DNA of 64,000 nt. Origin: Sedimentimonas flavescens. GTDB taxonomy: Bacteria; Pseudomonadota; Alphaproteobacteria; Rhodobacterales; Rhodobacteraceae. The notes below the pieces were generated by a model. The model worked only from the letters and a program-made list of their open reading frames with translations, made no database searches and was not told where the DNA came from. The stretch covers positions 62,001 to 126,000 of the forward strand of contig NZ_JAHVAI010000001.1 in NCBI RefSeq assembly GCF_019264375.1, written 5' to 3'. Numbering within the stretch: the stretch's first letter is position 1; every line of letters begins with the position of its first letter. Positions 49,160-64,000 of this stretch are shown here, piece by piece. Made by a program: the position numbers and the translations under genes.

Positions 49160-49258
49160 GAGCCCCTCCTGTTCTGGCGGGCAGATTAGAAAGCGCTGCA
49201 CCCAGCCGCAACCTCTGGCGCGGCGCCGCTCAGCCCCGCCTGCGCGACGGATCCTCTC

Positions 49259-49966
49259 TCAACCCTGCGGCAGGGCGCCTGCGGTGATCGCCTGCACCCC
49301 GTCCATCACATCGGCGGAAAGCGCGGCCTGTGCGGCCGCCCCATCGCGGCGCAACAAGGCGCGCAGGATCTGGTCATGATAGTCAGTCGTGCGCAGCATA
49401 TTCGCCCGATCGGGCGTCAGTTCGCGCACCACGGGGCCAAGCCTCATCCAAAGCGGGTCAAGCAACGCCTCCAGGAAGTGGATTCGCGCCGCCGCCGCAA
49501 GGCCGCGGTGAAAACGCAGGTTCGCAGCCAGGAAGGCGGTGGTATCTCCCCGCTCGGCCGCAATGCGCATCGCGGCATTATCCTCGGAAAGATCGGCCAG
49601 ATCCTCTTCGCTCCGCCGTTCGGCAGCCGCATGCACGGTCTCGGTTTCCAGCAGCATTCGTAGCCGGATCAGATCGGCGCGCTCCTCGCTGCTGAGTTGC
49701 GGCACCATCATCGTGCGTCCGGGCGTCGAGACCAGCGCCCCAAGGCTTTCGAGCCGCTGGACCGCGTCGCGCACCGGCATCAGGCTCGTGCCCATCTCCA
49801 CGGCAAGCGCCCGCAGCGGCAGCTTCTGTCCGGCGGCGAAGCGCCCGGCCATGAGATCGGCGCTGAGTCGGCGAAACACCTGTTCATGCAACGGCCCCTG
49901 CGGCGCCGGAGCAGAGGTCTCGGAAGGGGCAACTGGGTCGGCGTCTAGGTCAGGCATCGGGTCCAT
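49259..49966 (-). CDS. GntR family transcriptional regulator (FCD domain)
   Basis: A 235-aa GntR regulator. The winged helix-turn-helix is LHEQVFRRLSADLMAGRFAA followed by LPLRALAVEMGTSLMPVRDAVQRLESLGAL, and the C-terminal FCD effector domain is LIRLRMLLETETVHAAAERR onward. It is divergent from the transaminase gene. A 12-bp palindrome lies 10 nt upstream of its start and another near the transaminase start, which suggests both self and target control. Confidence 0.9.
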   Translation of the reverse strand: MDPMPDLDADPVAPSETSAPAPQGPLHEQVFRRLSADLMAGRFAAGQKLPLRALAVEMGTSLMPVRDAVQRLESLGALVSTPGRTMMVPQLSSEERADLIRLRMLLETETVHAAAERRSEEDLADLSEDNAAMRIAAERGDTTAFLAANLRFHRGLAAAARIHFLEALLDPLWMRLGPVVRELTPDRANMLRTTDYHDQILRALLRRDGAAAQAALSADVMDGVQAITAGALPQG

Positions 49967-49975
49967 AGCAAAAAT

Positions 49976-49987
49976 TTGTTATAACAA
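49976..49987. promoter_or_regulatory. GntR operator site 1
   Basis: TTGTTATAACAA is a perfect 12-bp palindrome, 10 nt upstream of the GntR gene start. Its core GTTATAAC recurs at 50040-50047. The position suits repression of the regulator itself. Confidence 0.65.
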
Positions 49988-50037
49988 GTTGCACGACTCA
50001 TTGCGAATTTCAAGCACTCCTGAAAAACTGTCGCGAA

Positions 50038-50049
50038 TCGTTATAACAA
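50038..50049. promoter_or_regulatory. GntR operator site 2
   Basis: TCGTTATAACAA repeats the palindromic core GTTATAAC of site 1. The centres are 62 nt apart, about six helical turns, so two dimers would face the same side of the DNA. It lies 16 nt before the transaminase start. Confidence 0.65.
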
Positions 50050-50064
50050 AATCGCCGAGGTCGC

Positions 50065-51453
50065 ATGTTCGTCTCTCCACTGTCCAACTCGCTCGCAGCC
50101 GCCGACATCGCATCGACGCTGCACCCAAACACCAATGCGCGCCTGCATGAGAAAAACGGGCCCGTGATCATCGAACGCGGTGACGGGATCCGGGTCTGGG
50201 ACACCAATGGCAAGGATTACATCGAAGGGCTGGCAGGGCTGTGGTCAGTCGCGGTCGGCTTTTCCGAGAAGCGCCTCGCCGACGTCGCCTATCAGCAGAT
50301 GCTGAAGCTGCCCTATTACCACACCTTTGCCTCGAAGGCGCACGAGCCCTCGATCCGGCTTGCCGAGAAGCTGATCGAGATGACGCCCGCGGGCCTCGAC
50401 CGGGTGTTCTTCACCAACTCGGGCTCTGAGGCGAACGACACGATCGTCAAGCTCGTCTGGTATTACAACAACGCGCGCGGCCTACCCAAGAAGAAGAAAT
50501 TCCTCGCCCGGAACAAGGGCTACCACGGGATCACCGTCGCGTCAGGCAGCCTGACCGGCCTGCCCGTCAACCACAAGGACTTCGACCTTCCCGCGATCCC
50601 CGTGCGGCACCTGACGTGTCCGCACCACTACCGCTTCGGCCTTCCCGGCGAGAGCGAGGCAGAGTTTGCCGCGCGCCTCGTCGCGGAGGCCGAGGCGGTT
50701 TTTTTGGAGGAAGGGCCGGATACCATTGCCGCTTTCATCGGCGAACCGCTGATGGCTGCGGGCGGCGTCATGCCTCCGCCCGAAGGATATTGGCAGGGGA
50801 TCGAGGCACTCTGCCGGAAATACGACATCCTGCTGGTGTCGGACGAGGTGATCTGCGGTTTCGGCCGGCTCGGAACGCCGTTCGGCTGCCAGAAATACGG
50901 GTTCAAGCCCGACATCATGACCGTCTCGAAACAGATCGTCTCGTCTTACATGCCGTTGGCTGCGCTGCTCTTCTCGGACGAGATCTATCAGGTGGTTGCG
51001 GACAACACGAACAAGCTCAACAGTTTTGGCCATGGCTTCACCGCCTCCGGGCATCCGGTGGCCACGGCGGTTGCACTTGAGAACCTCGCGATCATGGAAG
51101 AACGGGATCTGATGGGGAATGCCGCCCGGCTGGAAGCTACGTTCCAATCAGGATTGCGCAGGCTTGGCGCGCATCCGCTCGTGGGCGAGGCGCGCGGCGC
51201 GGGGCTGATCGGGGCGCTTGAACTGGTGGCCGACAAGGCGACCAAACGGCCCTTCGACCCGATTGGGCGCGTGGGCGCCATCGCCACCGAGGAAGGCCAT
51301 GCGGCGGGGCTGATCTTCCGCGCGATCGGTGATCAGCTCGCGCTCTGCCCGCCTCTGATCGTGAACGAGGCCGACATCACCGAAATCCTCGCGCGGATGG
51401 AAACGACGCTGGAGCGCACCGCCGCACGGGTCGCGGCAGAGGGGATCGCATGA
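50065..51453 (+). CDS. Class III aminotransferase (omega-amino acid transaminase-like)
   Basis: A 462-aa PLP transaminase of fold type I, class III. The PLP lysine is Lys289 in DIMTVSKQIVSSYMPLAALL. The cofactor-binding region VFFTNSGSEANDTIVKLVWY and LLVSDEVICGFGRLGTPFGC are typical. Such enzymes move amino groups from omega-amino acids or amines to pyruvate or 2-oxoglutarate. It overlaps the SnoaL-like gene by 4 nt and is controlled from the divergent GntR region. The actual amine donor is unknown. Confidence 0.9.
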   Translation: MFVSPLSNSLAAADIASTLHPNTNARLHEKNGPVIIERGDGIRVWDTNGKDYIEGLAGLWSVAVGFSEKRLADVAYQQMLKLPYYHTFASKAHEPSIRLAEKLIEMTPAGLDRVFFTNSGSEANDTIVKLVWYYNNARGLPKKKKFLARNKGYHGITVASGSLTGLPVNHKDFDLPAIPVRHLTCPHHYRFGLPGESEAEFAARLVAEAEAVFLEEGPDTIAAFIGEPLMAAGGVMPPPEGYWQGIEALCRKYDILLVSDEVICGFGRLGTPFGCQKYGFKPDIMTVSKQIVSSYMPLAALLFSDEIYQVVADNTNKLNSFGHGFTASGHPVATAVALENLAIMEERDLMGNAARLEATFQSGLRRLGAHPLVGEARGAGLIGALELVADKATKRPFDPIGRVGAIATEEGHAAGLIFRAIGDQLALCPPLIVNEADITEILARMETTLERTAARVAAEGIA

Positions 51454-51860
51454 CCCAAGCGCAACGCGCAATCGAGGCGCAGGACAAGGCCCTCGAGGCC
51501 GCGCGGAGAAGGACGCTCGCGGCCTTCGCGGAAGCGTGGAATACCCGTGATCTCGAGGGGCTGATGCGCTGCATGGCTACGGATTGCGCCTTTCACGGCG
51601 CGGCGGGCCCAGACCCCGAAGGGGTCCGCCACGCCGGGCGCTCGGCGGTCGAGGCGGCCTATGCGGCGATCTTCGCGGCCTTCCCCGATGCACATTGGGC
51701 CCCGCGCGAGACGCTACTGATCGGGGATCGCGCTTTGACGAGCTGGCGCTTTACCGGCACTCGGACGGATGGAACCCGGGTCGAGGTCGACGGCTGCGAC
51801 ATCCTCGTCTTCGATCAGGATCGTATCGCGCTCAAGGACAGCTATCGCAAGGCGGGCTAG
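51450..51860 (+). CDS. SnoaL-like/NTF2 family protein
   Basis: A 136-aa protein with the NTF2-like SnoaL fold. The hallmarks are LAAFAEAWNTRDLEGLMRCMATDCAFHGAAGPD near the start, then YAAIFAAFPDAHWA and LTSWRFTGTRTDGTRVEVDG. The fold includes polyketide cyclases, isomerases and dehydratases, so the reaction is unknown. The ATGA overlap with the transaminase gene suggests it acts on the same pathway. Confidence 0.85.
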   Translation: MTQAQRAIEAQDKALEAARRRTLAAFAEAWNTRDLEGLMRCMATDCAFHGAAGPDPEGVRHAGRSAVEAAYAAIFAAFPDAHWAPRETLLIGDRALTSWRFTGTRTDGTRVEVDGCDILVFDQDRIALKDSYRKAG

Positions 51861-51885
51861 TCCAACCGCCTGCGACCAACAAGAA

Positions 51886-51912
51886 AACGCCCGGGCAGAT
51901 CGCCCGGGCGTT
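51886..51912. terminator. Terminator between the SnoaL-like gene and livK
   Basis: AACGCCCGGGC (51886-51896) pairs with GCCCGGGCGTT (51902-51912). The minus-strand reading is followed by TTTTCTTGTT, so it can end the Liv operon as well as the transaminase operon. Confidence 0.75.
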
Positions 51913-51966
51913 GTCGTTTCCAAGGAGGCCAGTGGCCGCGCCGGGGAATGCCCCGGCGCGCCAGGA

Positions 51967-53166
51967 TCACTTCATCAGCGCTTCCATCGGCACCGGCTCC
52001 GAGATCGTCCATTCGTCGACGATACCCGGCTTGCCATCCTTGACTTCGGCGATCAGATAGCGCGCCTTGTTCTGATGGTGCAGCTCGGGGGTGAAGGTGC
52101 GCGGACCGAAGAGCGTGGGCTCGCCGTCCATCTTCTCAAGCTCGGCGACAACGGCACCCGCATCAATCGAACCGGCGCGCTCGACGGCCTTGGCCCAGAC
52201 GTCGATCATCACGTAACCCGGATAGGTGTATTGCGTTGCCGGGTCCGAACCGGTCTTTTCCTTGTAGAGCGCGTTGAACGCGTTCACGTCCGGGTTCGGG
52301 TCATCGCCATAGACCGAACCCTGCACCGGCACATAGAAGTCCGACAGATCCGGCACTGCCGAAAGCCAGTAGCTGCCGTCGACCGCCGAGCCGTTCAGGA
52401 TCATCGAATTGATGCCAGCGGCGCGGATCTGCTTGATGGCCGACACAGCCCCCGGCATCATGGTGCAGAGCATGATCGCGTCGGGCTCTTTCGGCAGCGC
52501 CTTGATGCGGCTGATCTGGGCTGCAATCGAGGCGTCGTCGTTCTTGAACACGTCCTCGCCCGCAAGGTTCGCATCTGCCAGCGTCGGCAGCATCCAGTCG
52601 AAACCGTCGCAGATGCCCTTGTTGTAGACATAGGAGGTGTCGAGCAGGCGATAGAAATCGCGCGCGCCCTTCTTCTCATGGGCCCATTGCGCCATGGTCG
52701 CGCCCTGCACCGCCGCTAGAACCGAGGCCGAGAAGGAATGCGGGCCGACGCCCTGCACACCAGCCTTGATCGATTCCGCGCAGAGGAAGAACGACACCTT
52801 ACCAGAGCTTTCCGCGGTCAGAGCAGCCGGCGCGCCGAAATCGTAGTCGCAGGACACGACGACCATATCGGCCCCCGCATCAAGAACGCTCAGGCCCGCC
52901 TTGGCGCCCTCGGCCCGGTCAGTCTTGGTGTCGGCATTGACCACCTTGATCTGCTTGCCAAGCAGACCGCCCGCCGCGTTGATCTCTTCGATACGGATCA
53001 TCGCGGCGTCCTGCGCGGGTTTGTCATAGGCCTGCATGAAACCGGTTTCGGCGGTGGCGAAGCCCACAACGATATTGCCGTCGGCGTCTTCGGCCAGCGC
53101 GCCGGTCATCGGCGTCACGGCCAGCGCGAGCGCGCTCAGGCCAGTCATCAGTCGGGTGCGGGTCAT
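51967..53166 (-). CDS. Branched-chain amino acid-type ABC transporter substrate-binding protein
   Basis: A 399-aa periplasmic binding protein of the LivJ/LivK type. A signal peptide (LMTGLSALALAVTPMTGALA) is visible. The mature region starts GNIVVGFATAETGFMQAYDKPA and shows the ligand-binding fold with LLGKQIKVVNADTKTD. It is last in the minus-strand liv operon, about 40 nt from livM. In Rhodobacteraceae many such proteins bind amino acids, amides or urea rather than leucine, so the ligand must be tested. Confidence 0.88.
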   Translation of the reverse strand: MTRTRLMTGLSALALAVTPMTGALAEDADGNIVVGFATAETGFMQAYDKPAQDAAMIRIEEINAAGGLLGKQIKVVNADTKTDRAEGAKAGLSVLDAGADMVVVSCDYDFGAPAALTAESSGKVSFFLCAESIKAGVQGVGPHSFSASVLAAVQGATMAQWAHEKKGARDFYRLLDTSYVYNKGICDGFDWMLPTLADANLAGEDVFKNDDASIAAQISRIKALPKEPDAIMLCTMMPGAVSAIKQIRAAGINSMILNGSAVDGSYWLSAVPDLSDFYVPVQGSVYGDDPNPDVNAFNALYKEKTGSDPATQYTYPGYVMIDVWAKAVERAGSIDAGAVVAELEKMDGEPTLFGPRTFTPELHHQNKARYLIAEVKDGKPGIVDEWTISEPVPMEALMK

Positions 53167-53206
53167 GGTGTTCTCCTGTTGGTCGATTTTGGTTGGTTTT
53201 GATGTT

Positions 53207-54292
53207 TCACGCGTCCCCTGCGGGGACGTTTCGGGTTGCGGCGGAGGAGTTCCTCCGCCTTGCGCCTAGCCGCGCGGGCCAGACGAATTCACGGGCGAAA
53301 AGCCCCGAGGGACGGCGCGCGAGGATCACGATCATCACGACGCCGAGAAGGATTTCCTGAAGACCGCCCGGCAAGGCAAAGGTGCTCTCGCCCACGGGCA
53401 CGCCACGTTCGAGCCAGCGCAGCCCCTGGATCAGCAGCGACAGCAGGACAACGCCCATCACCGCGCCGGTCAGCGTGCCGATGCCGCCGACAACGAGCAT
53501 GGAAAGCGTGATGAAGGTCAGCCCCAGGTAGAAGGTGTCGGGTGTCACGACACCGATCGAATGCGCCATCAACGCCCCGCCCAGGCCCACCACCGCACCC
53601 GAGAGCGTGAAGGCCACAAGCCGCACGCGGGGGATGTCGATGCCCGAGGCAAGCGCCGCAGTCGGTTCGTCACGGGCCGCGCGCAGTGCAAGGCCATGGC
53701 GCGAGATCGCATGTGCCCAGGCGATGAACACGGCGGCAATCGCGCCAATCAGATACGGCCAGATGGTGCGCACGATCGGGATGCCGACAACCGAATTGGT
53801 CGCCGAGGTGACGCTTTCCCAATTCGCGTAGATCGTGTTGATCATCGCCAGCATGGCGAAGGTTGCGATACTGGCGGCAATCCCCGAGAGCCGCATCAGG
53901 ATTCGCCCGAAGATAAGCGCGAAGACCCCGGCGAAGATCCCCGCCAGAACCGCCCCCGGCCCATAGGGCAGTTGCAGCGCCTTGAGCCAGTCGGGCAGGC
54001 CCGGGAACGAGAGCTCTTTCATCATCGGCGGCATTGTCAGCCACGCAGCCGCATAAGCGCCCATGCAGGTAAAGCCGATATGGCCGAAGCTGAGCACGCC
54101 CGAGTTGCCGACGAAGATGTAGAGCCCGGTCACCAGGATCACCCGCACGAAGATGTCGATCATCGTCTGGTTGAAGGGGCGCGAGCCATAGGCGACGGTG
54201 ACCAGGGCGAGCACGACAAGAACGGCCGATAGGATCAGGGGCGTCGAGATCGTGCGAAGGGCCACGGATTTCACTTTGGGGAAGCTGGCCAT
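53207..54292 (-). CDS. livM: Branched-chain amino acid-type ABC transporter permease LivM
   Basis: A 361-aa permease with about nine hydrophobic segments. The signature GNSGVLSFGHIGFTCMGAYAAAW and the coupling-loop region ALRAARDEPTAALASGIDIPR are typical of LivM. It forms the membrane channel with LivH. Only 3 nt separate it from livH. The C-terminal tail is Arg-rich. Confidence 0.9.
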   Translation of the reverse strand: MASFPKVKSVALRTISTPLILSAVLVVLALVTVAYGSRPFNQTMIDIFVRVILVTGLYIFVGNSGVLSFGHIGFTCMGAYAAAWLTMPPMMKELSFPGLPDWLKALQLPYGPGAVLAGIFAGVFALIFGRILMRLSGIAASIATFAMLAMINTIYANWESVTSATNSVVGIPIVRTIWPYLIGAIAAVFIAWAHAISRHGLALRAARDEPTAALASGIDIPRVRLVAFTLSGAVVGLGGALMAHSIGVVTPDTFYLGLTFITLSMLVVGGIGTLTGAVMGVVLLSLLIQGLRWLERGVPVGESTFALPGGLQEILLGVVMIVILARRPSGLFAREFVWPARLGARRRNSSAATRNVPAGDA

Positions 54293-54295
54293 GGC

Positions 54296-55201
54296 TCAGA
54301 CCCTTTCCTTGGTGCCGCGCGCGGCGATCAGGCCCTGCGGGCGGAAGAGAAGCACGAGGATCACCGCCCCGTAGACGAAGGCATCGCGGAAGGGCCGCGC
54401 CTCTGGCGGCAGCACGGTCTGCATCACGACCGAAGCCGCCCCGAGCAGGAACCCCGCCAGCACTGCCCCTTCGAGCGAGCCGAGCCCGCCAATGACGGTG
54501 GCGATGAAGGCCATCAGCATGACCGCCCCGCCCATCTGGATGTCGGCCGTGCCGGTCTGTGCGCCCAGAATGATCGAGATTGCCCCGGCCAGAGCGCCCG
54601 ATAGCGCGAAGGCCCCCATGATCACACGGTTCGCGCGCACGCCCAGCATCCGTGCCATGGTGAAGTTCTCGGCAGCGGCGCGCATTTCTAGCCCGAACCG
54701 GGTGCGGCGCACGAAGACCGAGAGCGCGATGAGCATGACGATGGTCGCGAGTATTGTGATGAGCTGCAAGAGCGGCATCCGGGCGCCGAGGATCTCGACC
54801 GGCTGGCTAAGCGCCGGCAAGAGCGAGATCGACTTCGGCCGGCTCGAGAACAGCATCAGCAGGAAGTAGCGGATAACGAAACCGAGCGCGAAGGAGGCGA
54901 TCATCATCGTGGCCGGGCTTGCGTGGCGGAAGCGGCGGAAAACGACGATTTCGGAAAGGACCGATAGCCCCGCCCCCACCGCCAGCACGAAGGGGATCAA
55001 GAGGAACCACGGCAAGTGGCCCGCGAAGACGATGGCCACCGCATCGGTCGAGGGCCACAAAAGCGCGAAGACCGAGAAGGCGATAACGTCGCCATGGGCG
55101 AAGTTCACCAGCCGCATCACCCCGAAGATCAGCGCGATCCCGAGCGCGCCGAGCGCGTAAAGCGAGCCGAGGCTGAGTGCGTCGAACAATACCTGCAGCA
55201 T
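54296..55201 (-). CDS. livH: Branched-chain amino acid-type ABC transporter permease LivH
   Basis: A 301-aa permease with eight to nine hydrophobic segments. It begins LFDALSLGSLYALGALGIALIFGVMRLVNFAHGDV, the LivH signature, and contains MRAAAENFTMARMLGVRANR, the coupling loop contacted by the ATPases. The start overlaps the livF stop by 1 nt. Confidence 0.9.
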   Translation of the reverse strand: MLQVLFDALSLGSLYALGALGIALIFGVMRLVNFAHGDVIAFSVFALLWPSTDAVAIVFAGHLPWFLLIPFVLAVGAGLSVLSEIVVFRRFRHASPATMMIASFALGFVIRYFLLMLFSSRPKSISLLPALSQPVEILGARMPLLQLITILATIVMLIALSVFVRRTRFGLEMRAAAENFTMARMLGVRANRVIMGAFALSGALAGAISIILGAQTGTADIQMGGAVMLMAFIATVIGGLGSLEGAVLAGFLLGAASVVMQTVLPPEARPFRDAFVYGAVILVLLFRPQGLIAARGTKERV

Positions 55202-55935
55202 CAGTGCTCTCCATATCCGAAATAGGCGGCCTGAAGGGCCTCGCTTTGGCCCATCGCGCCCGCATCGCCGTCGAGCAGGATCTGCCCGCCGCGCATCAGG
55301 ATCATCCGGCCGCCGACCATCACCGCGCGGGTCGAGCTTTGCTCGACGATCAGCAGCGTCAGCTTGCGGTGCGCGCGCAGCCCGATCAGCCGCTCATAGA
55401 CCTGATCTGTGATATTGGGCGCGAGACCGAGCGAGGGCTCGTCGATGGCGATGAGGCGTGGGTTGGTCATTAGCGCCCGGCCGATCACCAGCATCTGTTG
55501 CTGCCCGCCCGACAGCAGCCCTGCCTGGCCGTGGCGGCGCTCCTTGAGGATCGGGAAGGTGTCGTAAACCTCTTCCAGCGCGCTCGCCGCGCGGGCCTTC
55601 CAGCCGCGTTCGCGCGAATGCATGCCGGTGCCCAGAAGCAGGTTCTCCTCAATCGAGAGCGAGCCGAAGACATCGCGCCCCTCGGGCACCATCGACAGGC
55701 CCATGCGCGCGATCTCTTCGGGGGCGCGACCGGTGATCTCGATCCCGCCAAAGTCAATCCGCCCGCCCGCAGGCGGCGTCACACCCGCGATCGCCCGCAT
55801 CAGCGAGGACTTCCCCGCACCGTTCGGGCCGGTGATGAACAGGATCTCGCCCTCGGCCAGTGTGAAGGCCACCTCGCGCACCGCGGTCAGGCGGCCATAA
55901 CGGATGGTGACATCGGAAACGGCAAGCAAGCTCAT
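55201..55935 (-). CDS. livF: ABC transporter ATP-binding protein LivF
   Basis: A 244-aa ATPase. Walker A is ITGPNGAGKSSLM, the signature is LLSGGQQQMLVIGRAL, and Walker B is RLIAIDEPSLGLAP. The VPEGRDVFGSLSIEENL region is typical of LivF. It pairs with LivG to power LivHM. Its ATG overlaps the livG stop by 4 nt. Confidence 0.92.
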   Translation of the reverse strand: MSLLAVSDVTIRYGRLTAVREVAFTLAEGEILFITGPNGAGKSSLMRAIAGVTPPAGGRIDFGGIEITGRAPEEIARMGLSMVPEGRDVFGSLSIEENLLLGTGMHSRERGWKARAASALEEVYDTFPILKERRHGQAGLLSGGQQQMLVIGRALMTNPRLIAIDEPSLGLAPNITDQVYERLIGLRAHRKLTLLIVEQSSTRAVMVGGRMILMRGGQILLDGDAGAMGQSEALQAAYFGYGEH

Positions 55936-56684
55936 TGCATCACCTCCAGAACCGGAAGGGTGCTGTCGGCGGCGGTCCCCATATAGGCGTGGCGCACGGT
56001 TTCCGAGGCGCGGATCTGCTCGGGCGGGCCGTCCTCGATCACGGCGCCGGAGTCGAGCACGACGATATGGTCGCAGGTTTCCAGCACCAGGCCCACGTTA
56101 TGCTCGATGAGCAACACGCCGCAGTTCAGCTCGGTCGCAATGCGGCGGATCAGGGCGGCAAGTTCTGCCGCCTCGGGCGCGCTCATGCCGGCTGCGGGCT
56201 CGTCGAGCAGGATGTAACCCGGGCGCCCCATCAGCGCGCGGCCGATGGCCACGCGGCGTTCGTCGGTATAGGGCAGCGTACCGGCAATCCGGTCCGCAAG
56301 CGGCGCGATGCCGACCCAGTCGAGCATTGCCTGCGCCTCGGCAACCGCTGCGGCGCGCGAGAGGCCCAGGCCCACGCCCGTCACCTCGAGATTGTCGATC
56401 ACCGGCAGTTCACGAAAGAGGCGCCCGCCCTGAAAGGTGCGCGCGACGCCACGGCGGCGGACCTGATGCGGCGCAAGCCCGACAAGGCTTTCGCCGTCGA
56501 GCTTCACCGCGCCTTCGGTCGGCGCCTGAAAGCCGGTCAGTACGTTCACCAGAGTCGTCTTGCCCGCACCGTTCGGACCGATGAGACCCGTGACATGGCC
56601 GGGCGTCACGCTCAGGCGCGCCTCGGAAAGCGCCTTGAGCCCCGCAAAGGCCACGGAAATATTGTCAGCTTCGAGTTGGCGCAT
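55932..56684 (-). CDS. livG: ABC transporter ATP-binding protein LivG
   Basis: A 250-aa ATPase. Walker A is LIGPNGAGKTTLVNVLTGF, Walker B YILLDEPAAGMSAPEA, with the signature region LPYTDERRVAIGRALM in the degenerate form common in LivG. The start at 56684 follows AAGGGCGGA. It is the first liv gene, separated by 223 nt from the pxpC stop on the same strand, so it may also have its own promoter. Confidence 0.92.
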   Translation of the reverse strand: MRQLEADNISVAFAGLKALSEARLSVTPGHVTGLIGPNGAGKTTLVNVLTGFQAPTEGAVKLDGESLVGLAPHQVRRRGVARTFQGGRLFRELPVIDNLEVTGVGLGLSRAAAVAEAQAMLDWVGIAPLADRIAGTLPYTDERRVAIGRALMGRPGYILLDEPAAGMSAPEAAELAALIRRIATELNCGVLLIEHNVGLVLETCDHIVVLDSGAVIEDGPPEQIRASETVRHAYMGTAADSTLPVLEVMQ

Positions 56685-56907
56685 TCCGCCCTTCCATCCG
56701 GTTCTTGGAAAAGGGGCTACCGTTCCCAAAAGCTGCGCTTTCGGGTCGGGTCTTCCCTCCCTGTGGTTTCGGCGGCCTCTTTTCGGGCCGTCCGGGTGTT
56801 TAGCGTCGCACGGCGCGCCGGGCCTGTCTTGTCGCGGAGCGCGCCCAAACTTGACGCTCGGTGCGCTCCGCTCCGGGACAGGGCCCGGACCGGGGCAAAC
56901 GGGGGGC

Positions 56908-57879
56908 TCAGCCCGCCAGATGCGCCCGCGCCGCGGTGAAAAGCGCGCCATTGTCGGCGCGCGCGGCCAGCGCCTGATCCAGCGTGACCGGCACGAACTG
57001 AGCGGGACGGTGCGGCTGAAGCTGGGCGATCACATCCATATCGGCCGAGATCACGGCACCGAGCATCATGTAGCCACCGCCCGAGACCGCATCGCGGTGC
57101 AACACGATCGGTTCGGTTCCCGAGGGCACCTGGATCGAGCCATAGGGATAGCAGGCATCGACAATGTTCGACGGGTCCGAGCCTGCGCCGAAGGGCTGCA
57201 CGCGCTCGACGAATTCGAGCGGATGGCCGCCGCGGAAGCGATAGCCGATCCGGTCGGCCTCGGGCGCGACCTTCCAGACATCCTCGAAGAAGCGCGCACC
57301 CGCCGCCTCGGTGATCCGGTGCCAGTAAAGGCCGGGCAGCATCCGAAGCTCGATTTCGGTCGCCTCGGGGCGGCGCAGCGCGACTGGCAGGCTGCGACCG
57401 GGCGTGCCTGCCCCCTGCCCCACCGGCAGTTCGTCGCCCGCCTTGATCGCGCGGCCCTGATAACCGCCAAGCGCCCCCAGAACATAGGTGGAGCGCGAGC
57501 CGAGCACGACCGGCACGTCGATCCCGCCCGACACCGCGATATAGGCCCGCGCGCCGCCCTTGAGGAAACCGAAGCTCAGCCGGTCGCCCGCCTTGACCGC
57601 AAAGCTCTCCCAGGTCGACTGCTCGACACCGTTCAGCTTGGGCGGCAACTCGCCGCCGGTGATGGCGATCACTGCCGGAGCGGTGAATTCCAGTTCCGGC
57701 CCCATGAAGGTCGCCTCGAGCAGGGCCGCGCCCTCGGGGTTGCCCACGAGAAGGTTGGCCACCATCGTCGCGAAGCGATCCATACCGCCGCCTTCGGGGA
57801 AGCCGAGGTGATAATAGCCCGGCCGGCCGAGGTCCTGCACCGTGGTCGAAAGCCCGGGGGTGATTACCTTAATTGCCAT
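56908..57879 (-). CDS. pxpC: Biotin-dependent carboxyltransferase family protein (PxpC/KipA)
   Basis: A 323-aa protein of the KipA/PxpC (AHS2) family. It begins IKVITPGLSTTVQDLGRPGYYHLG, the family signature, and includes RAYIAVSGGIDVPVVLGSRST. AHS2 is one half of the carboxyltransferase domain of urea carboxylase; PxpC is a subunit of ATP-dependent 5-oxoprolinase. The start overlaps the pxpB end by 11 nt. It precedes the liv genes in the same direction. Confidence 0.92.
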   Translation of the reverse strand: MAIKVITPGLSTTVQDLGRPGYYHLGFPEGGGMDRFATMVANLLVGNPEGAALLEATFMGPELEFTAPAVIAITGGELPPKLNGVEQSTWESFAVKAGDRLSFGFLKGGARAYIAVSGGIDVPVVLGSRSTYVLGALGGYQGRAIKAGDELPVGQGAGTPGRSLPVALRRPEATEIELRMLPGLYWHRITEAAGARFFEDVWKVAPEADRIGYRFRGGHPLEFVERVQPFGAGSDPSNIVDACYPYGSIQVPSGTEPIVLHRDAVSGGGYMMLGAVISADMDVIAQLQPHRPAQFVPVTLDQALAARADNGALFTAARAHLAG

Positions 57880-58744
57880 TGAGGGCCTCCATCAGACGGG
57901 CATTGGCGCCGGCCATGTCGCGGTTGAACTCGGTCAGGCTGAAGTCGCACGAACGGATCGTCGGCTCCCACTCGTTTGCCTCGATCGCCTCGAGCGTGGC
58001 ATCGTATTCATCACGCGTCTGGGGGCGGAACTTGACGATGTCCCCCGGCTTGAAGAGGCACATCTCCTCCGAGAGATAGCGCACCTTTTGGCTCGGGTCG
58101 TAGATCGGGGCGGGCGTTACGCCATACATCTGATAGCCGCCCGCGCCGCGCACCGAATAGATCGCGGCGAAGCAGCCGCCATGGCCGACGGTCAGTTTCG
58201 GCGTGTCGGTCCGCGGGCGCAGGTATTTCGGCGCCTGGATCTGCTTTTTCTGCTCAACAAGCTGGTAGAGGAACGGCAGCCCCGCAACGAAGCCCACCAT
58301 CGACACAAACCAGGGCGTTCCGGCATGGGCCGCAATGAACTCCTCGATCGTGGCATAGCCATTGACGCGGGCGGAGTATTCCAGATCGGTGGAATTCGGA
58401 TCCTGGTGCCGCTCGCGGAAACGCATCTCGGTCTCATGTGTCCAGGGGTCCTGGTAGTAGACCGGCAGTTCGATGATCCGCGTGGCCAGCGTCTGGTCCG
58501 ATTTCGCCGCCTGCTCCTCAAAGCTTCTCAGCTCCCTAAGCATGTCGGTGGGGCTAATCTTGTCGGGGTCGAACTTGACCTGAAAGCTTGCGTTCGCGGG
58601 GCAGGTCTCGATCACGCCGGGGATCTGCGCCGCGCGCACCGCGTTGATCATCGAAAGCCCCGTGAAGAACGACTCGAGCGACATGGATTCGGAAACCTCG
58701 CCGAAGATATGCTCGTCGCCGCCATGAGAGAAACGTATCGCCAT
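57869..58744 (-). CDS. pxpB: Allophanate hydrolase subunit 1-like protein (PxpB/KipI)
   Basis: A 291-aa protein of the KipI/PxpB (AHS1) family. The typical PVYYQDPWTHETEMRFRERH and VRGAGGYQMYGVTPAPIYDP motifs are visible, and the N-terminal ~40 residues are longer than in minimal PxpB. AHS1 pairs with AHS2 in urea carboxylase and 5-oxoprolinase. It lies 11 nt from the biotin carboxylase gene stop and overlaps pxpC by 11 nt. Confidence 0.92.
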   Translation of the reverse strand: MAIRFSHGGDEHIFGEVSESMSLESFFTGLSMINAVRAAQIPGVIETCPANASFQVKFDPDKISPTDMLRELRSFEEQAAKSDQTLATRIIELPVYYQDPWTHETEMRFRERHQDPNSTDLEYSARVNGYATIEEFIAAHAGTPWFVSMVGFVAGLPFLYQLVEQKKQIQAPKYLRPRTDTPKLTVGHGGCFAAIYSVRGAGGYQMYGVTPAPIYDPSQKVRYLSEEMCLFKPGDIVKFRPQTRDEYDATLEAIEANEWEPTIRSCDFSLTEFNRDMAGANARLMEALNGN

Positions 58745-58755
58745 CCCTTATCCTT

Positions 58756-60129
58756 TCAGCCTTGCGCGTCGTTCAGACGGTCCGCGTTTTCGGAAAGCCA
58801 GCCCTCAAGCCAGCGGGTATGCACCGCGCCCGCGCGCACCGTCTCGTCGGCAGCCAGCGCGAGAAACAGCGGCTTGGTGGTCTTCATCCCCTCGATCGAA
58901 AGCTCGGTCAGCGCGCGGGTAAGCCGCGTGATCGCAGCCTCGCGGGTCTCGGCGTGAACGACGAGCTTCGCCAGCAGCGAGTCATAGAAGGGCGGAACCT
59001 GATAGCCTTGGAAAAGCATGGAATCGAACCGCACGCCGGGGCCGCCGGGCAGGCGCAGATCACCGACCTTGCCCGGGAAGGGCGCGAAATCGCGCGCCGG
59101 GTCCTCGGCGTTGATGCGCACCTCGATTGCATGGCCGCGCGGGACGATGTCGCGCTGCTTCAGACGCAACGCCTCGCCGCCGGCGATCCGCAGGCCTTCG
59201 GCCACCAGGTCCACCCCGGTGATCATCTCGGTCACCGGATGCTCGACCTGGATACGGGTGTTCATCTCGATGAAGTAGAACTGGTCGGCCGCATCGTCGT
59301 ACAGGTATTCGACCGTACCCGCGCCCGAATAGCTGACCGCACGCGCCAAGGCGACCGCCGAGGAGCAGAGCCGATCGCGCAGCCCCTCGGAGAGCGCCGC
59401 CGAGGGCGCCTCTTCCCAGACCTTCTGGCGGCGGCGCTGCAGCGAGCATTCGCGCTCGAACAGGTGAATGGCATCGGTGCGGTCACCGAGCACCTGCACC
59501 TCGATATGGCGCGCGCGGCCGATCACCTTCTCCATGTAAAGCCCGCCATCGCCAAAGGCAGACAGCGCCTCAGCCTCGGCCTGCGGAAAGGCCTGCTCGA
59601 ATTCCGCGAGGTTGTTGGCGATGCGAATACCGCGCCCGCCGCCGCCTGCCGCGGCCTTGATCATCACCGGAAAGCCCGTGTCGATCAGGATATGGCGCGC
59701 CTCTTCGATCCCAGCCACACGGCCGCTCGAGCCCGGAACCACCGGCACGCCTGCGGCATGGGCCGCCGAGCGGGCCGACACCTTGTCGCCCATCAGCCGG
59801 ATCGCGTCACCCGAGGGCCCGACAAACACCAGCCCCGCCGCCGCAACGGCATCGGCGAATTCGGCATTCTCGGCGAGGAACCCGTAGCCGGGATGGATCG
59901 CATCCGCCCCGGTCGTCTCCGCCGCCGCAAGGATCGCAGCCATGTTCAGGTAGGATTTCTTGGCCGCGGGCGGCCCGATATTGACCGCCTCGTCGGCAAG
60001 CTGGACATGCAGGGCGTCGGTATCGGCAGCCGAATGCACCGCCACCGTCGCAATCCCGAGGTCACGGGCTGCACGGATGATCCGCACGGCGATCTCGCCT
60101 CGGTTCGCGACCAGAAGTTTCTTGAGCAT
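58756..60129 (-). CDS. accC: Biotin carboxylase (AccC-type)
   Basis: A 457-aa ATP-grasp enzyme that carboxylates biotin with bicarbonate and ATP. It begins MLKKLLVANRGEIAVRIIRA and shows the ATP-binding loop IKAAAGGGGRGIRIAN and catalytic motif EMNTRIQVEHPVTEM. The length matches stand-alone AccC (about 450 aa). A paralogue of the fatty-acid enzyme is likely, because it is encoded with KipI/KipA genes. Its start overlaps the carrier gene stop by 1 nt. Confidence 0.93.
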   Translation of the reverse strand: MLKKLLVANRGEIAVRIIRAARDLGIATVAVHSAADTDALHVQLADEAVNIGPPAAKKSYLNMAAILAAAETTGADAIHPGYGFLAENAEFADAVAAAGLVFVGPSGDAIRLMGDKVSARSAAHAAGVPVVPGSSGRVAGIEEARHILIDTGFPVMIKAAAGGGGRGIRIANNLAEFEQAFPQAEAEALSAFGDGGLYMEKVIGRARHIEVQVLGDRTDAIHLFERECSLQRRRQKVWEEAPSAALSEGLRDRLCSSAVALARAVSYSGAGTVEYLYDDAADQFYFIEMNTRIQVEHPVTEMITGVDLVAEGLRIAGGEALRLKQRDIVPRGHAIEVRINAEDPARDFAPFPGKVGDLRLPGGPGVRFDSMLFQGYQVPPFYDSLLAKLVVHAETREAAITRLTRALTELSIEGMKTTKPLFLALAADETVRAGAVHTRWLEGWLSENADRLNDAQG

Positions 60130-60362
60130 CAGTCGAGATCCGCCAGAGGGGTGCCGGCCATCACCGGCTCTTCGTTATCGACGCTGAAGCGGATGTTGGT
60201 GCCCGCGACGTCCGAGGTGACCTCGATGTAGGATTTCATCACCTCAATGAGGCCGATCACATCGCCCACGGCGACCGCATCGCCATCGGCCTTGTAAGGC
60301 GGCTTGTCCGGTGCCGGCGTGCGGTAGAAGGTGCCGGGAAGCGGGGACAGGATCTGGGCCAT
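60129..60362 (-). CDS. Minimal biotin carboxyl carrier protein
   Basis: A 77-aa protein that is only a biotinyl domain. It starts LSPLPGTFYRTPAPDKPPY like AccB and has the lipoyl/biotinyl hairpin with Lys43 in LIEVMKSYIEV, where E-V-M-K-S replaces the usual E-A-M-K-M. Normal AccB proteins are about 150 aa with an N-terminal linker that is absent here. AAGGAG precedes the ATG at 60362. It is coupled to the biotin carboxylase, so it probably serves that enzyme. Confidence 0.88.
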   Translation of the reverse strand: MAQILSPLPGTFYRTPAPDKPPYKADGDAVAVGDVIGLIEVMKSYIEVTSDVAGTNIRFSVDNEEPVMAGTPLADLD

Positions 60363-60382
60363 TCTTGGCGCTCCTTTCGTGA

Positions 60383-61108
60383 TCAAACGGTTTCTTCCGA
60401 CACCGCGGCGCGCACGGCGCGGGCGATGTCGATGGCATTGGGCGTGTCGGAGTGCACGCAGATGGTCTCGCAGCGCGTCGGGAAGGTCGAACCGTCGTTC
60501 GCCGTGCCCTGCCCTTCGCGAATGGCACGCAGGCAGCGCGCCGCCATCTCTTCGGGGTCCTTGGCTTCGTGCTCGCGCGTGACGATCAGCGCGCCGCCGG
60601 GCGCGTAATCCAGATCGCAGTAATATTCTGCGACGAACTTGTGCCCGCGCTCGGCGTAGACGCGCTCATGCAGCGTGCCAATCATGCCAAACAGCGGCAC
60701 GCCGTAGATATCGGCGACGTCGCAGACGGCATGGGCCACCTCTTCCTGACGCGCGGCCATGCCATAGAGGCTCCCATGCGGCTTGATGTGGTTGAGGACC
60801 ATGCCCTCGGCGCGCAGAAAACCGACAAGCGCGCCCACCTGATAGAGCATGCAGTTCGCCAGTTCCTCGCGGCCCATCTTCATCTCGCGCCGCCCGAAAC
60901 CCTGCAGGTCCGGCAAGGACGGATGCGCCCCGACCTTGACGCCATGCGCCTTGGCCAGACGCACAGTGGCGCGCATGTGGTCGGGGTCGGAGCCATGAAA
61001 ACCGCATGCGACATTGGCCACATCGATCAGCGGAATCATGCCCTGATCGTCCCCCATCCGATAGAGGCCGAATCCCTCTCCCATGTCGCAGTTCAAGCTC
61101 GCCCGCAT
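60383..61108 (-). CDS. pxpA: LamB/YcsF family protein (PxpA, 5-oxoprolinase subunit A)
   Basis: A 241-aa protein of the LamB/YcsF family. Signature regions are SLNCDMGEGFGLYRMGDDQ, IDVANVACGFHGSDPDHM and NHIKPHGSLYGMAARQ. In bacteria PxpA works with PxpB and PxpC to open 5-oxoproline with ATP. It is the first gene of the minus-strand cluster and is divergent from the LysR gene. Confidence 0.92.
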   Translation of the reverse strand: MRASLNCDMGEGFGLYRMGDDQGMIPLIDVANVACGFHGSDPDHMRATVRLAKAHGVKVGAHPSLPDLQGFGRREMKMGREELANCMLYQVGALVGFLRAEGMVLNHIKPHGSLYGMAARQEEVAHAVCDVADIYGVPLFGMIGTLHERVYAERGHKFVAEYYCDLDYAPGGALIVTREHEAKDPEEMAARCLRAIREGQGTANDGSTFPTRCETICVHSDTPNAIDIARAVRAAVSEETV

Positions 61109-61163
61109 TCAACTCATCTCCGTTTATCCCTGCCCTCAAGGGTGAGCCGAAGATGGGTGACTT

Positions 61164-61206
61164 GAATAGTTCTATTTATTGAATATTAATATCTGAAAAA
61201 TCGATA
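61164..61206. promoter_or_regulatory. AT-rich divergent promoter region with palindrome
   Basis: This short AT-rich stretch contrasts with the GC-rich surroundings. It holds ATATTAATAT (61183-61192), a perfect 10-bp palindrome, within a TTTATTGAATATTAATATC context. It is the likely control region for pxpA and the LysR gene, and LysR proteins often use such sites. Confidence 0.5.
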
Positions 61207-61224
61207 CTTCTTGGCAGGCCAACC

Positions 61225-62133
61225 ATGTCACTGACTTTAAAACAAATTCGCTATTTCGTCGCGGCCGCCGAAACCGGACAGGTCAGCCACGCCGCTATGG
61301 AAATGAACATTTCCCAGTCATCCGTGACTTCTGCAGTGCAATCTTTGGAGAACCAACTGGGCGTCCGACTGTTCGAGCGCGGCCATAGTGGCGTCACCCT
61401 GACGATCGAAGGCGCACGTTTCTTGAATCACGCCCGGACGATCATGGCGGCGGTCGACGACGCCGTGCGCAGCCCGCTTGGCACCGAGCGGAAGGAAAGT
61501 GGCACGCTGAGGGTGGCGACGACCTACACCGTCGCGGGCTACTACATGCCGCGCTATTATGCGCGCTTTCGCAGCAACTATCCCCTCATCACCCTTGAGA
61601 TGCACGAGGTGGCACGCGACCGGATCGAAAGCGGGCTTCTGGAAGGCGAGTATGACATCGCCGTCATGCTGGTCTCGAACATTGCCAATTCAGCCGAGAT
61701 TGCGCACGAGACGCTGGTCAGCTCGCAGCGGCGTCTTTGGTTGCCGACCGATCACCGCCTGTGCGATGCCAAGCAGATCAGCCTGCAAGACGTCGCGCGC
61801 GAGCCCTACGTGATGCTGACCGTCGACGAGGCAAAGCAGACCGCGGGCCGCTACTGGGACCATGCCGGCGTCGTGCCGAACGTGATCTTTTCGACCTCGT
61901 CGGTGGAGGCCGTGCGCTCGATGGTGGCAGGCGGAATGGGCGTCACGATCTTGTCCGACATGGTCTATCGCCCGTGGTCGCTTGAGGGGCGACGGCTGGA
62001 GGTCCGCACCCTTTCGGACGAGGTCCCCAGCATGGATGTCGGTCTGGCATGGTCGCGCGCAGAGCCCCTCAAACCGGTAGCCGAGGTCTTTCGAAGCTTC
62101 ATGACCATGGCCACCGGAGGCGGGGGGGAATGA
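61225..62133 (+). CDS. LysR family transcriptional regulator
   Basis: A 302-aa LysR regulator. The N-terminal helix-turn-helix is LKQIRYFVAAAETGQVSHAAMEMNISQSSVTSAVQSLENQLGV, and the effector domain begins LGTERKESGTLRVATTYTVAGYYMPRYYARF. It is divergent from pxpA and likely controls that cluster. Its stop codon forms one arm of a hairpin shared with the bioY stop. Confidence 0.93.
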   Translation: MSLTLKQIRYFVAAAETGQVSHAAMEMNISQSSVTSAVQSLENQLGVRLFERGHSGVTLTIEGARFLNHARTIMAAVDDAVRSPLGTERKESGTLRVATTYTVAGYYMPRYYARFRSNYPLITLEMHEVARDRIESGLLEGEYDIAVMLVSNIANSAEIAHETLVSSQRRLWLPTDHRLCDAKQISLQDVAREPYVMLTVDEAKQTAGRYWDHAGVVPNVIFSTSSVEAVRSMVAGGMGVTILSDMVYRPWSLEGRRLEVRTLSDEVPSMDVGLAWSRAEPLKPVAEVFRSFMTMATGGGGE

Positions 62134-62153
62134 GCCTGCGCCTGACAGGCTCA
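62131..62153. terminator. Convergent hairpin containing both stop codons
   Basis: TGAGCCTG (62131-62138) pairs with CAGGCTCA (62146-62153). The arms include the LysR stop TGA and the bioY stop on the other strand. No T run follows in either direction. Confidence 0.45.
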
Positions 62154-62699
62154 GGACGTGCGAGAGAGAATGCTTCTGGGACGCACCCGCGCGAGTGAGG
62201 TGGTCAACAGACCGGCGACGATAGCCTTGGCGACATCACCCGGAATGAAGGCTACGACCAGCACCGCGGCTTCGGTCAGGCTCTTTTGCAGCACGATGGA
62301 CATGCCGACGATCCCGAAGGCGTAAAGCACGACAATGCCGCCTATGACGGATGCGATCATCGCGACCAGCGCCAACGGCGCGGCCCGCCATTTCTCGACG
62401 ATCCAACCGGTCACGTAAGCCGCCGCGACCCAACCGACCAGGAACCCGGCGGTCGGCCCCACAAAGACGCCAAGCCCGCCGCGTCCGCCCGACAGCAGGG
62501 GCAGCCCGAGCGCCACCAGCAACAGGAAAAGCAACACCGCCAGCGCCCCGCGCCGCGCCCCCAACACCGTTCCGCACAGCATGATCCCCAGGCTTTGCGC
62601 CGTGATCGGAACGCCAAACCCCAAGGTGATCGTCGGTATCATACCCAACGCGGCAATCAGAGCCGCAAACAGTGCCACATGGGCGAGAGTTCTTTCCAT
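62151..62699 (-). CDS. bioY: Biotin transporter BioY
   Basis: A 182-aa membrane protein with six hydrophobic segments, the S-component that binds biotin. It shows MIPTITLGFGVPITAQSLGIMLCGTVLGARRG and the GGRGGLGVFVGPTAGFLVGW motif typical of BioY. It is coupled to bioN by 1-nt overlap. It is placed next to a biotin-dependent carboxylase cluster, which suggests biotin supply for it. Confidence 0.93.
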   Translation of the reverse strand: MERTLAHVALFAALIAALGMIPTITLGFGVPITAQSLGIMLCGTVLGARRGALAVLLFLLLVALGLPLLSGGRGGLGVFVGPTAGFLVGWVAAAYVTGWIVEKWRAAPLALVAMIASVIGGIVVLYAFGIVGMSIVLQKSLTEAAVLVVAFIPGDVAKAIVAGLLTTSLARVRPRSILSRTS

Positions 62700-63316
62700 C
62701 AGTCTTCCTCCTGAGGCGCCAAAAGCCCGCCGCGCGCGCGGAGCGCCTCGGCTACATATTCTGCATCATCGAGCGCCACGGCGACAAGCGGCAGAACGAT
62801 CCGCCAATGCGCCCTGCGGTGGGAGCGCGCCGCCCAGCTTTGTGTCAACTCCCGCCCCTTCTGCGCCAGCACCGGGATCGTACGCACCACCAGCATCACG
62901 CAGATCTCAAGCAGCCGAGGGTTCAACCCAAGCCGTGCGAAGGGCTTCGTGCAGGCACCGGCGACCTGCATGATGTCGCTCAGCCGGGTGGTCATCGTCA
63001 CAAGGTTCGCTGCGCCGACCACCGTAACCAGCCGTATTACGATGACCAGCCCCTGAAGGCTGTCCTCGATATAGATGTGCCAGGCCATGACCCCCAGAAC
63101 AAAGGGCCAGAGGATGATCAGCCGGCGCAACCCGACCGTGAAGAAGAGCCAGCCCGGCGCCGCGTACAGGCCCAACATCACGAGAAGCGCCGCACATTGC
63201 ACCCATAACTGTGCCGTCGAGGCCAGTCCCAGTGTCACCAGCGACAACAGCCCCAGCTTGAGGGCCGCTGGCCAGCCATGGGCCGCAACTCTAACCGGCG
63301 AGGTGAGAGATATCAT
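62699..63316 (-). CDS. bioN: Energy-coupling factor transporter T component (BioN)
   Basis: A 205-aa membrane protein of the EcfT family with five or so hydrophobic segments. The C-terminal EYVAEALRARGGLL contains the ARG signature used to contact ATPases. It joins BioM and BioY to form the biotin transporter. Its start lies inside the end of bioM, overlapping by 26 nt. Confidence 0.88.
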   Translation of the reverse strand: MISLTSPVRVAAHGWPAALKLGLLSLVTLGLASTAQLWVQCAALLVMLGLYAAPGWLFFTVGLRRLIILWPFVLGVMAWHIYIEDSLQGLVIVIRLVTVVGAANLVTMTTRLSDIMQVAGACTKPFARLGLNPRLLEICVMLVVRTIPVLAQKGRELTQSWAARSHRRAHWRIVLPLVAVALDDAEYVAEALRARGGLLAPQEED

Positions 63317-64000
63317 CGCCCTCTCCCTGCCGCGCCATCTCGTCTAGATAGCCCCCCAGAACCGCAGCCCCGTCGCCCAGGGCCGCGATGCGCCCCTTTT
63401 CAAGCCACAGGACCGTTTCATAACCTGCCAGATCCGCCGGGTCGTGCGAGACATGGATAACGGCCCCCTGAAACAACCCAAGATAGCGGGTCAGCTGGGC
63501 CTTTGTCGGAATGTCCAGCCCGGCGAAGGGTTCGTCCAGCAGCAGCGTTCGCGGCGCCATCGCGACGACCGACATCAGGCAGACAAGATGTTTTTGCCCT
63601 TGCGAAAGGGTCGACACGAAAACATCGGCCCAGTCAGATTTCCCGAACCGCGCAAGGGTCGCGCGCGCCTCGTCCTGCGCTGCGCGCTTGCTGCGCCCGA
63701 GTTGTCTCAGACCAAAAACGATCTCCTCCAGAACGGTCGGAAAGATGATCTGATGATCGGGGTTCTGAAACAGGATGCCGACCTCACGCAATGCCGCGCG
63801 ACGATCGGACAGGACATCGGTGCCATTCAAGCGGCACTGACCGGCGGAGGGGGCAACCAACCCCGCCACAAGCCGCAGCAGGGTCGACTTGCCCGAGCCG
63901 TTGCGCCCGACAATGCCTAAGCGCCGGAACGACAGATCCAGATTGATCCGCTCAAGAACAAGCCGCGCGTCAAGCTGAAGGCTCGCCTCAGTGATCTCCA
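63291..64000 (-). CDS. bioM: Energy-coupling factor transporter ATPase (BioM), 5' end beyond window
   Basis: The reading frame runs off the right edge, so the N-terminus is missing by a few residues. The visible part has LVLERINLDLSFRRLGIVGR, Walker A GRNGSGKST, a signature LSQGQKHLVCLMS (LSGGQ variant) and Walker B LLLDEPFAGLD. It is the ATPase of the biotin ECF transporter together with BioN and BioY. Confidence 0.9.
   Translation of the reverse strand, partial: EITEASLQLDARLVLERINLDLSFRRLGIVGRNGSGKSTLLRLVAGLVAPSAGQCRLNGTDVLSDRRAALREVGILFQNPDHQIIFPTVLEEIVFGLRQLGRSKRAAQDEARATLARFGKSDWADVFVSTLSQGQKHLVCLMSVVAMAPRTLLLDEPFAGLDIPTKAQLTRYLGLFQGAVIHVSHDPADLAGYETVLWLEKGRIAALGDGAAVLGGYLDEMARQGEGDDISHLAG

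Follow-up and report, generated by a model that had tools for sequence, protein, structure and literature searches.

A Sedimentimonas flavescens operon joining a urea-carboxylase-like transferase to an AccBC-like biotin supply: a candidate biotin-dependent carboxylase-hydrolase of amides

The five-gene operon and its recurrence

The stretch analysed here (the window) comprises 64,000 nt of Sedimentimonas flavescens, positions 62,001 to 126,000 of contig NZ_JAHVAI010000001.1, and carries at 56908-61108 a minus-strand operon of five genes in the order pxpA, biotin carrier, biotin carboxylase (BC), pxpB and pxpC. The first gene (60383..61108) encodes a 241-aa hydrolase of the LamB-YcsF family (LamB_YcsF 289.6 bits, Pfam) that keeps the family-conserved residues in our column analysis. 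After a 20-nt gap comes a short biotin carboxyl carrier protein (BCCP) of 77 aa with the motif IEVMKSY (60129..60362; Biotin_lipoyl 46.4 bits); its start is the ATG at 60362, the mechanical open reading frame beginning at TTG 60386, and the family scans used a 76-aa form lacking the initial Met. The carrier gene overlaps by 1 nt (TGATG) that of an AccC-type BC of 457 aa (58756..60129) with all three biotin carboxylase domains of Pfam, the BC part expected of a biotin-dependent carboxylase. An 11-nt gap leads to pxpB (57869..58744), encoding a 291-aa PxpB/KipI-like carboxyltransferase (CT) subdomain C/D (CT_C_D 130.4 bits), which overlaps by 11 nt pxpC (56908..57879), encoding a 323-aa PxpC/KipA-like CT subdomain A/B (CT_A_B 289.1 bits). 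The Pfam family matches of all five genes are far above chance. A reading made from the sequence only had described five adjoining minus-strand genes with small overlaps or gaps, and this was borne out: all positions were confirmed, and the junctions range from -11 to +20 nt. A known riboswitch at the locus was rejected, an Rfam scan of 49000-64000 giving 0 matches, guanidine riboswitches included.

We distinguish four kinds of locus: type 1, the kind in the window; type 2, in which a different BC lies near pxpABC; single-chain urea carboxylase (UC); and canonical, the ordinary pxpABC. A sample of 150 genomes of the phylum was searched with the PxpC family, not with BC. CT_A_B was found in 50 of them at 69 places, and 62 of these were read, all but one fragment (G004) and six places whose frames span 1245-1325 aa and were presumed to be UCs. 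The 62 loci comprise 5 of type 1, 9 of type 2, 15 single-chain UCs and 33 canonical sets, and the order A-BCCP-BC-B-C holds in all five type-1 loci. A second, BC-based scan of genome contigs, in which BC is present by construction, yielded 231 loci, and among the best 80 the full order is found in 55. Two more are partial (L054 has no adjacent A, and L071 begins inside BC), and the remaining 23 show no type-1 B, 21 of them being BC relatives (51-57% identity) in other gene surroundings and two, L050 and L068, ending early. The sequence-only reading had proposed checking whether accC, the short BCCP and kipIA co-occur, and in both surveys the set does recur. Chance adjacency of the five genes was rejected, as gene set and order recur in other genomes; the enzyme system is real and recurrent.

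One genome (G070) holds a type-1 operon, a canonical set and, judged by a 1266-aa open frame, a UC together. Among 41 genomes of relatives, the window's own included, PxpB at 63% identity or more is found in 8, a patchy trait. Plasmids carry it as well: PxpB has matches at 1e-40 in 89 of 72,556 plasmid records, those of haloarchaea and actinobacteria included, and the full order is present in six of nine plasmid loci found with PxpB. Some peculiar members were seen: (i) the PxpB reading frame is interrupted in two close copies (G161 contig 517:3489-4358, with one in-frame TAG in an assembly 84% complete, and L015:3486-4358, with an early frame end). (ii) In type-1 operons L060, L062, L063, L064, L065 and L066 PxpA is 39-44% identical to that of the window, compared with 58-86% at other type-1 loci, and may have been swapped.

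Ancestry of the predicted transferase and of its putative biotin supply

In K. lactis urea amidolyase (KlUA), the sections consulted of PMC5770610 describe Lys1605 as the most likely general base when the carboxyl group is transferred, the K1605A enzyme retaining 0.095 of kcat. This catalytic lysine of the UC transferase is present in the operon as PxpB K173, which aligns with it (with a 593-residue offset between 3va7 and 5i8i). Site 173 is Lys in 58/58 type-1 rows with a residue there and in 15/15 UCs, and Arg in 33/33 canonical and 9/9 type-2 proteins; the count is without L050 and L068, whose contigs end before B, and L015, which has a gap at 173. PKY stands at the Lys site in all nine plasmid loci as well. 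At PxpC site 241 the same division appears, with Asp in 59/59 type-1 and 15/15 UC rows, and Ser in 33/33 canonical and 8/9 type-2 rows. Columns that type 1 holds in common with UC outnumber those in common with canonical proteins by 23 to 8 at even thresholds of 80%, 27 to 14 at 60% and 28 to 17 at 50%; uneven column thresholds had given 22 to 8, and the even-threshold repeat was used. Several of the type-1/UC columns sit in insertions absent from nearly all canonical proteins. The sequence-only reading had held KipI/KipA to be akin to the UC carboxyltransferase, and these UC-type active-site residues argue for that kinship here.

Residue 220 of PxpA is Ser in 59/59 type-1 rows and Gly in 28/28 canonical PxpA proteins. 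A second apparent change, R177T, was set aside because Arg178 adjoins it in 59/59 type-1 rows, so that the two positions may be misaligned by one residue.

PxpB scores 73.1 against the 145.55 of equivalog TIGR00370, and PxpC 209.4 against the 500 of equivalog NF045499, while reaching the broader TIGR00724 (254.3 > 230.2). PxpA passes the models NF003814 (261.3 > 226) and NF003816 (214.2 > 213) and falls short of three PxpA equivalogs. The single-chain cut-off of urea carboxylase TIGR02712, 1303.85, is not reached by BC (530.4), C (213.6) or B (91.5). By the catalytic Lys and the tree placement given next, the PxpB and PxpC of the operon are no ordinary subunits of a 5-oxoprolinase.

Trees of PxpB and PxpC (23 type-1 rows) place type 1 and UC as sisters, with support of 98/92 in the C tree, 99/97 in the B tree and 100/99 in the joined tree; the CT of type 1 lies outside the UC clade in all three, as its sister and not nested within it. 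The C tree was built without L015, L016, L061, L115 and L122, and the joined trees also without eleven long-branch rows (L143, L138, L139, L136, L126, L107, L104, L105, L125, L111 and L118); L071-L073, type 1 in the BC-based scan, were left out of the type-1 set. A structure model of PxpB (predicted local distance difference test, pLDDT, 91.6) fits urea amidolyase/UC best, with a query-normalised TM-score (TMq) of 0.79-0.81 compared with 0.38-0.60 for canonical KipI-type chains, part of this gap being length, because the canonical chains are shorter.

The type-2 loci of the sample (L103, L104, L105, L115, L120, L121, L122, L128 and L134) keep Arg at the catalytic site. Several have BC and BCCP in one frame and a fused PxpB-PxpC of ~530-570 aa, and six form a clade adjoining type 1 plus UC in the B tree. 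Archaeal and actinobacterial Lys-type PxpB/PxpC were also seen (L163, L164 and L165), the archaeal locus with a short carrier ~3 kb off.

The biotin supply has another history. The carrier reaches NCBIfam equivalog NF005457 (113.5 > 87) and aligns gap-free to the BCCP of E. coli AccB, an alignment that predicts its biotinylation lysine; BC reaches NF009471 (744.1 > 686). In the BC tree, type-1 BC is a clade of its own (100/100; 20 rows, each from a type-1 operon), which joins AccC-like BC weakly (89/48). Support of 100/98 separates it from the BC of UC and from two long-chain BCs of this genome, the latter probably acyl-CoA carboxylases by their length. By tree and alignment, BC and carrier look AccC/AccB-like, not urea-carboxylase-like. 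Because the BC tree differs from the CT trees and the carrier aligns with AccB, the module appears to combine a UC-like transferase with an AccBC-like supply, and this pairing differs from a simply split urea carboxylase. The earlier description of the operon as a split, urea-carboxylase-like module is thus partly supported: it holds for the CT part and calls for correction at BC and carrier. Its further claim, that the form is neither a single-chain urea carboxylase nor the PxpABC that works without biotin, is supported by sequence. Compared with urea carboxylase/urea amidolyase (TIGR02712; K. lactis 3VA7 and 5I8I), to which the sister CT clade, the catalytic Lys, some twenty common columns and the best PxpB fold match tie it, the operon has separate subunits, an AccC-like BC and a PxpA partner instead of allophanate hydrolase. 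Compared with the prokaryotic 5-oxoprolinase PxpABC, whose three subunits are homologous to its own, it adds BC and a biotin carrier, and has Lys for Arg at PxpB 173 and Asp for Ser at PxpC 241 in proteins below the PxpB and PxpC equivalogs.

The rest of the genome (3.38 Mb, 62 contigs) provides controls. It holds two CT_A_B genes and two YcsF genes, the second set being a canonical pxpB-pxpC-pxpA on contig 45, where 19 kb of sequence gave neither a BC nor a carrier match. Five BC domains were found: besides the operon's, one has an AccB-like gene next to it on contig 5, and three belong to longer frames (684-1171 aa). With a canonical pxpABC and an accB-accC pair elsewhere, the operon is therefore not needed as the only 5-oxoprolinase or the only AccBC.

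These controls bear on two other explanations. In the first, BC and carrier are spare AccBC subunits serving acetyl-CoA carboxylase or another acyl-CoA carboxylase, as their AccC/AccB-like sequences and 'acetyl-CoA carboxylase' names would have it. The separate AccB-AccC-like pair, the exclusive type-1 BC clade and the lack of a CoA-type carboxyltransferase (AccA/AccD) among the five genes, the rest of the genome not having been searched for AccA/AccD, make this highly improbable. In the second, PxpBC phosphorylates 5-oxoproline and PxpA hydrolyses it, as an ordinary ATP-dependent 5-oxoprolinase, BC and carrier being merely co-located. PxpA does pass NF003814, the A gene is called 5-oxoprolinase subunit PxpA in most plasmid records read, and PxpABC is described as working by ATP-dependent phosphorylation and hydrolysis in the portions consulted of PMC13274462 and PMC8453981, which leave biotin unmentioned. 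Against this stand the unreached PxpB and PxpC equivalogs, the R173K and S241D changes with the UC-common insertions, the canonical set elsewhere in the genome, the five genes kept together in every type-1 locus of the PxpC-based sample, and the BioY/BioB neighbours described below; we consider this explanation unlikely.

Several results count against a UC-type transferase coupled to biotin. The stems of type 1 and UC are long, as the tree program warned, and when each of the two is placed without the other, UC groups with the fused type-2 proteins (93/93), leaving type 1 on an open fork; because of this, the sister relation rests on the trees together with the common residues and insertions. 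Normalised to the target, YbgJ reaches 0.85 against the PxpB model. The PxpC model (pLDDT 86.3) fits YbgK (E 6.8e-32) and UC (1.5e-30) alike, and its pLDDT falls below 50 at 231-238, overlapping the loop common to type 1 and UC. All nine BC-linked type-2 loci keep R173, and eight keep S241, as canonical proteins do. Linkage to BC and the Lys are thus not strictly coupled, and a rule by which Lys means biotin and Arg means none was rejected. Conversely, three divergent Lys-type pairs (L163, L164 and L165) have no adjoining BC gene. Finally, the long-chain acyl-CoA carboxylase of PDB 9yx5 has, by the title of the entry, MSMEG_0435-0436 bound to it, a pair of the Arg type.

Flanking genes and clues to the substrate

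The sequence-only reading had mentioned neither the importer, LysR and BioY genes described here nor the canonical pxpABC elsewhere in the genome. A LIV-type ATP-binding cassette (ABC) importer follows pxpC on the same strand with a spacing of 223 nt. It comprises, all on the minus strand, a LivG-like ABC ATPase (55932..56684; 250 aa when started at ATG 56684, whereas 55932-56723 was scanned for families), a LivF/UrtE-like ABC ATPase (55201..55935) that does not reach equivalog cut-offs, LivH-like (54296..55201) and LivM-like (53207..54292) permeases, both named by position and conservation, not by scanning, and a periplasmic binding protein (51967..53166; Peripla_BP_6). Convergent with the transporter genes is a class III aminotransferase (50065..51453, plus strand; NF004767, 742.1 > 517), with homologues near several related operons. 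On the other side, a LysR-type regulator (61225..62133, plus strand) is divergent from the operon, LysR being seen beside many related operons too, and is followed by the biotin transporter component BioY (62151..62699, minus strand; Pfam 123.3 bits) and by bioN/bioM-like genes (62699-63316 and 63291-63869) named by position, not by scanning.

Neighbours were counted within 6.5 kb of C wherever 12 kb or more of a locus was read. BioY is near 12 of 49 type-1 operons and near none of 32 canonical, 9 type-2 or 15 UC loci (Fisher 5e-5). CapA and CapB are both near 6 of 49 type-1 operons, compared with 0 of 56 others (Fisher 0.009); those of L051 pass their equivalogs (1241.9 and 1112.7 > 1000), and five of the six cases are L051 itself or at least 77% identical to it. 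Equivalogs of gabT lie directly after C in L049 and L053, the Ruegeria TM1040 operon has gabT and succinate-semialdehyde dehydrogenase (SSADH) within 5 kb upstream, and bioB follows C in Acidiphilium. Further aminotransferases occur at 6.6-7.2 kb, outside the control windows. The neighbours CapAB, gamma-aminobutyrate (GABA) transaminase and BioY/BioB suggest a biotin-fed catabolism of lactams or omega-amino acids, and because of the CapAB and gabT neighbours together with the PxpA partner, lactams are favoured as substrate. Molybdenum hydroxylase genes were also seen near type-1 operons (L047, L048, L099 and L166; Diaphorobacter among the hosts), where they might supply a lactam from a cyclic imine.

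The lactam assignment has weak points of its own. The sixth CapA+CapB case, L101, is only 32-33% identical; class III aminotransferases are near 9 of 49 type-1 operons vs 2 of 32 canonical ones (Fisher 0.19); and the neighbour p-values are overstated because rows are related. The stretches read around the operons of Rhizobium johnstonii and Shinella have another kind of ABC transporter and no lactam genes, nor any other of the neighbours just listed, and a Zn-dependent hydrolase adjoins the operon of R. johnstonii.

These two operons fit a related explanation, in which the same biotin-dependent N-carboxylation acts on a non-lactam substrate (an acyclic amide, ureido compound, hydantoin or guanidino compound) and PxpA hydrolyses the product. 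The sister relation of the CT to urea carboxylase, and importer ATPases that resemble Liv/Urt while staying below equivalog cut-offs, agree with it too. The presence of CapAB and gabT near some type-1 operons speaks for lactams instead, no guanidine riboswitch was found by Rfam in 49000-64000, and the genome has no urease match and no allophanate hydrolase over cut-off (best 185.4 vs 511.05), so that plain urea degradation was rejected. We rate a non-lactam substrate as rather unlikely, yet likelier than a plain 5-oxoprolinase.

A proposed biotin-relayed opening of amides

We propose that the AccC-type BC would use ATP and bicarbonate to form carboxybiotin on the 77-aa carrier, which would swing to a PxpB/PxpC heterodimer acting as a urea-carboxylase-type carboxyltransferase. 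There, with PxpB K173 as the likely base, CO2 would be put on the amide nitrogen of the imported substrate; PxpA/YcsF would hydrolyse the activated N-carboxy amide, and the carbamate would then lose CO2. The net effect would be an ATP-driven opening of an amide with bicarbonate as catalyst. The most likely substrate would be a lactam, e.g. 2-pyrrolidone or some other gamma/delta-lactam, whose opening would yield an omega-amino acid that an aminotransferase could use. We consider a biotin-dependent carboxylase-hydrolase of some amide quite probable, and lean mildly towards the amide being a lactam.

Several known systems bear on this scheme. Aspergillus lamA and lamB are linked to 2-pyrrolidinone, a link not among the matches listed in our open-licence literature search. 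The P. aeruginosa genes PA0493-PA0496 seem, by description only, to be the same operon, the remaining genes of PA0492-PA0496 being YcsF/KipI/KipA. Its biotin enzyme PA0493 and AccC-like PA0494 lie in one operon according to the excerpts consulted of PMC6249292 and PMC5521831, the former calling their precise function unknown. Section 8 of Lombard and Moreira (PMC3199775) notes neighbouring genes that resemble, as a pair, the two halves of the UC CT, and gives no functional data there. PDB 9yx5 (released 2025-11-26) shows, by its title, a biotin-dependent carboxylase in complex with MSMEG_0435-0436, an M. smegmatis pair of the KipI/KipA type, and lists an alpha3 subunit; because of it, contact of such a pair with a carboxylase is not new in itself. 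It differs in its Arg-type PxpB and in its partner, another carboxylase, the mycobacterial long-chain acyl-CoA one. A literature search found no paper on this complex, and none on the operon's function was among the open-licence matches listed, which likewise did not include the Lys-type/Arg-type split or the mixed ancestry. The caprolactamases CapAB/OplAB, as far as the portions of the sources consulted go, also hydrolyse lactams with ATP and need bicarbonate, and CapAB genes adjoin some type-1 operons; they belong to another family, that of hydantoinases, with no biotin part described.

A biotin-relayed lactamase, in which a UC-type transferase acts on the ring nitrogen, YcsF opens the ring and CO2 is returned, would add another way of opening amides with ATP, a proposal we put forward tentatively, at somewhat under even confidence. 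If gamma/delta-lactams are indeed opened, a gap would be filled, OplAB showing only trace activity on gamma-butyrolactam in the part consulted of PMC11033972, with a bearing on the recycling of nylon-4/5 monomers.

The operon occurs in many proteobacteria, and the system is probably misnamed: records call its genes acetyl-CoA carboxylase, 5-oxoprolinase subunit or allophanate hydrolase subunit, names that are probably misleading, and NCBI-style records name the PxpC here 'biotin-dependent carboxyltransferase family protein'. If it does open lactams, the relation of urea carboxylase to the 5-oxoprolinase fold would become testable with it. The operon, if our interpretation is true, would survive as an intermediate that connects urea carboxylase with the 5-oxoprolinase lacking biotin, and would illustrate the turning of an ATP-driven hydrolase into a carboxylase through an Arg-to-Lys change and the recruitment of an AccBC-like pair.

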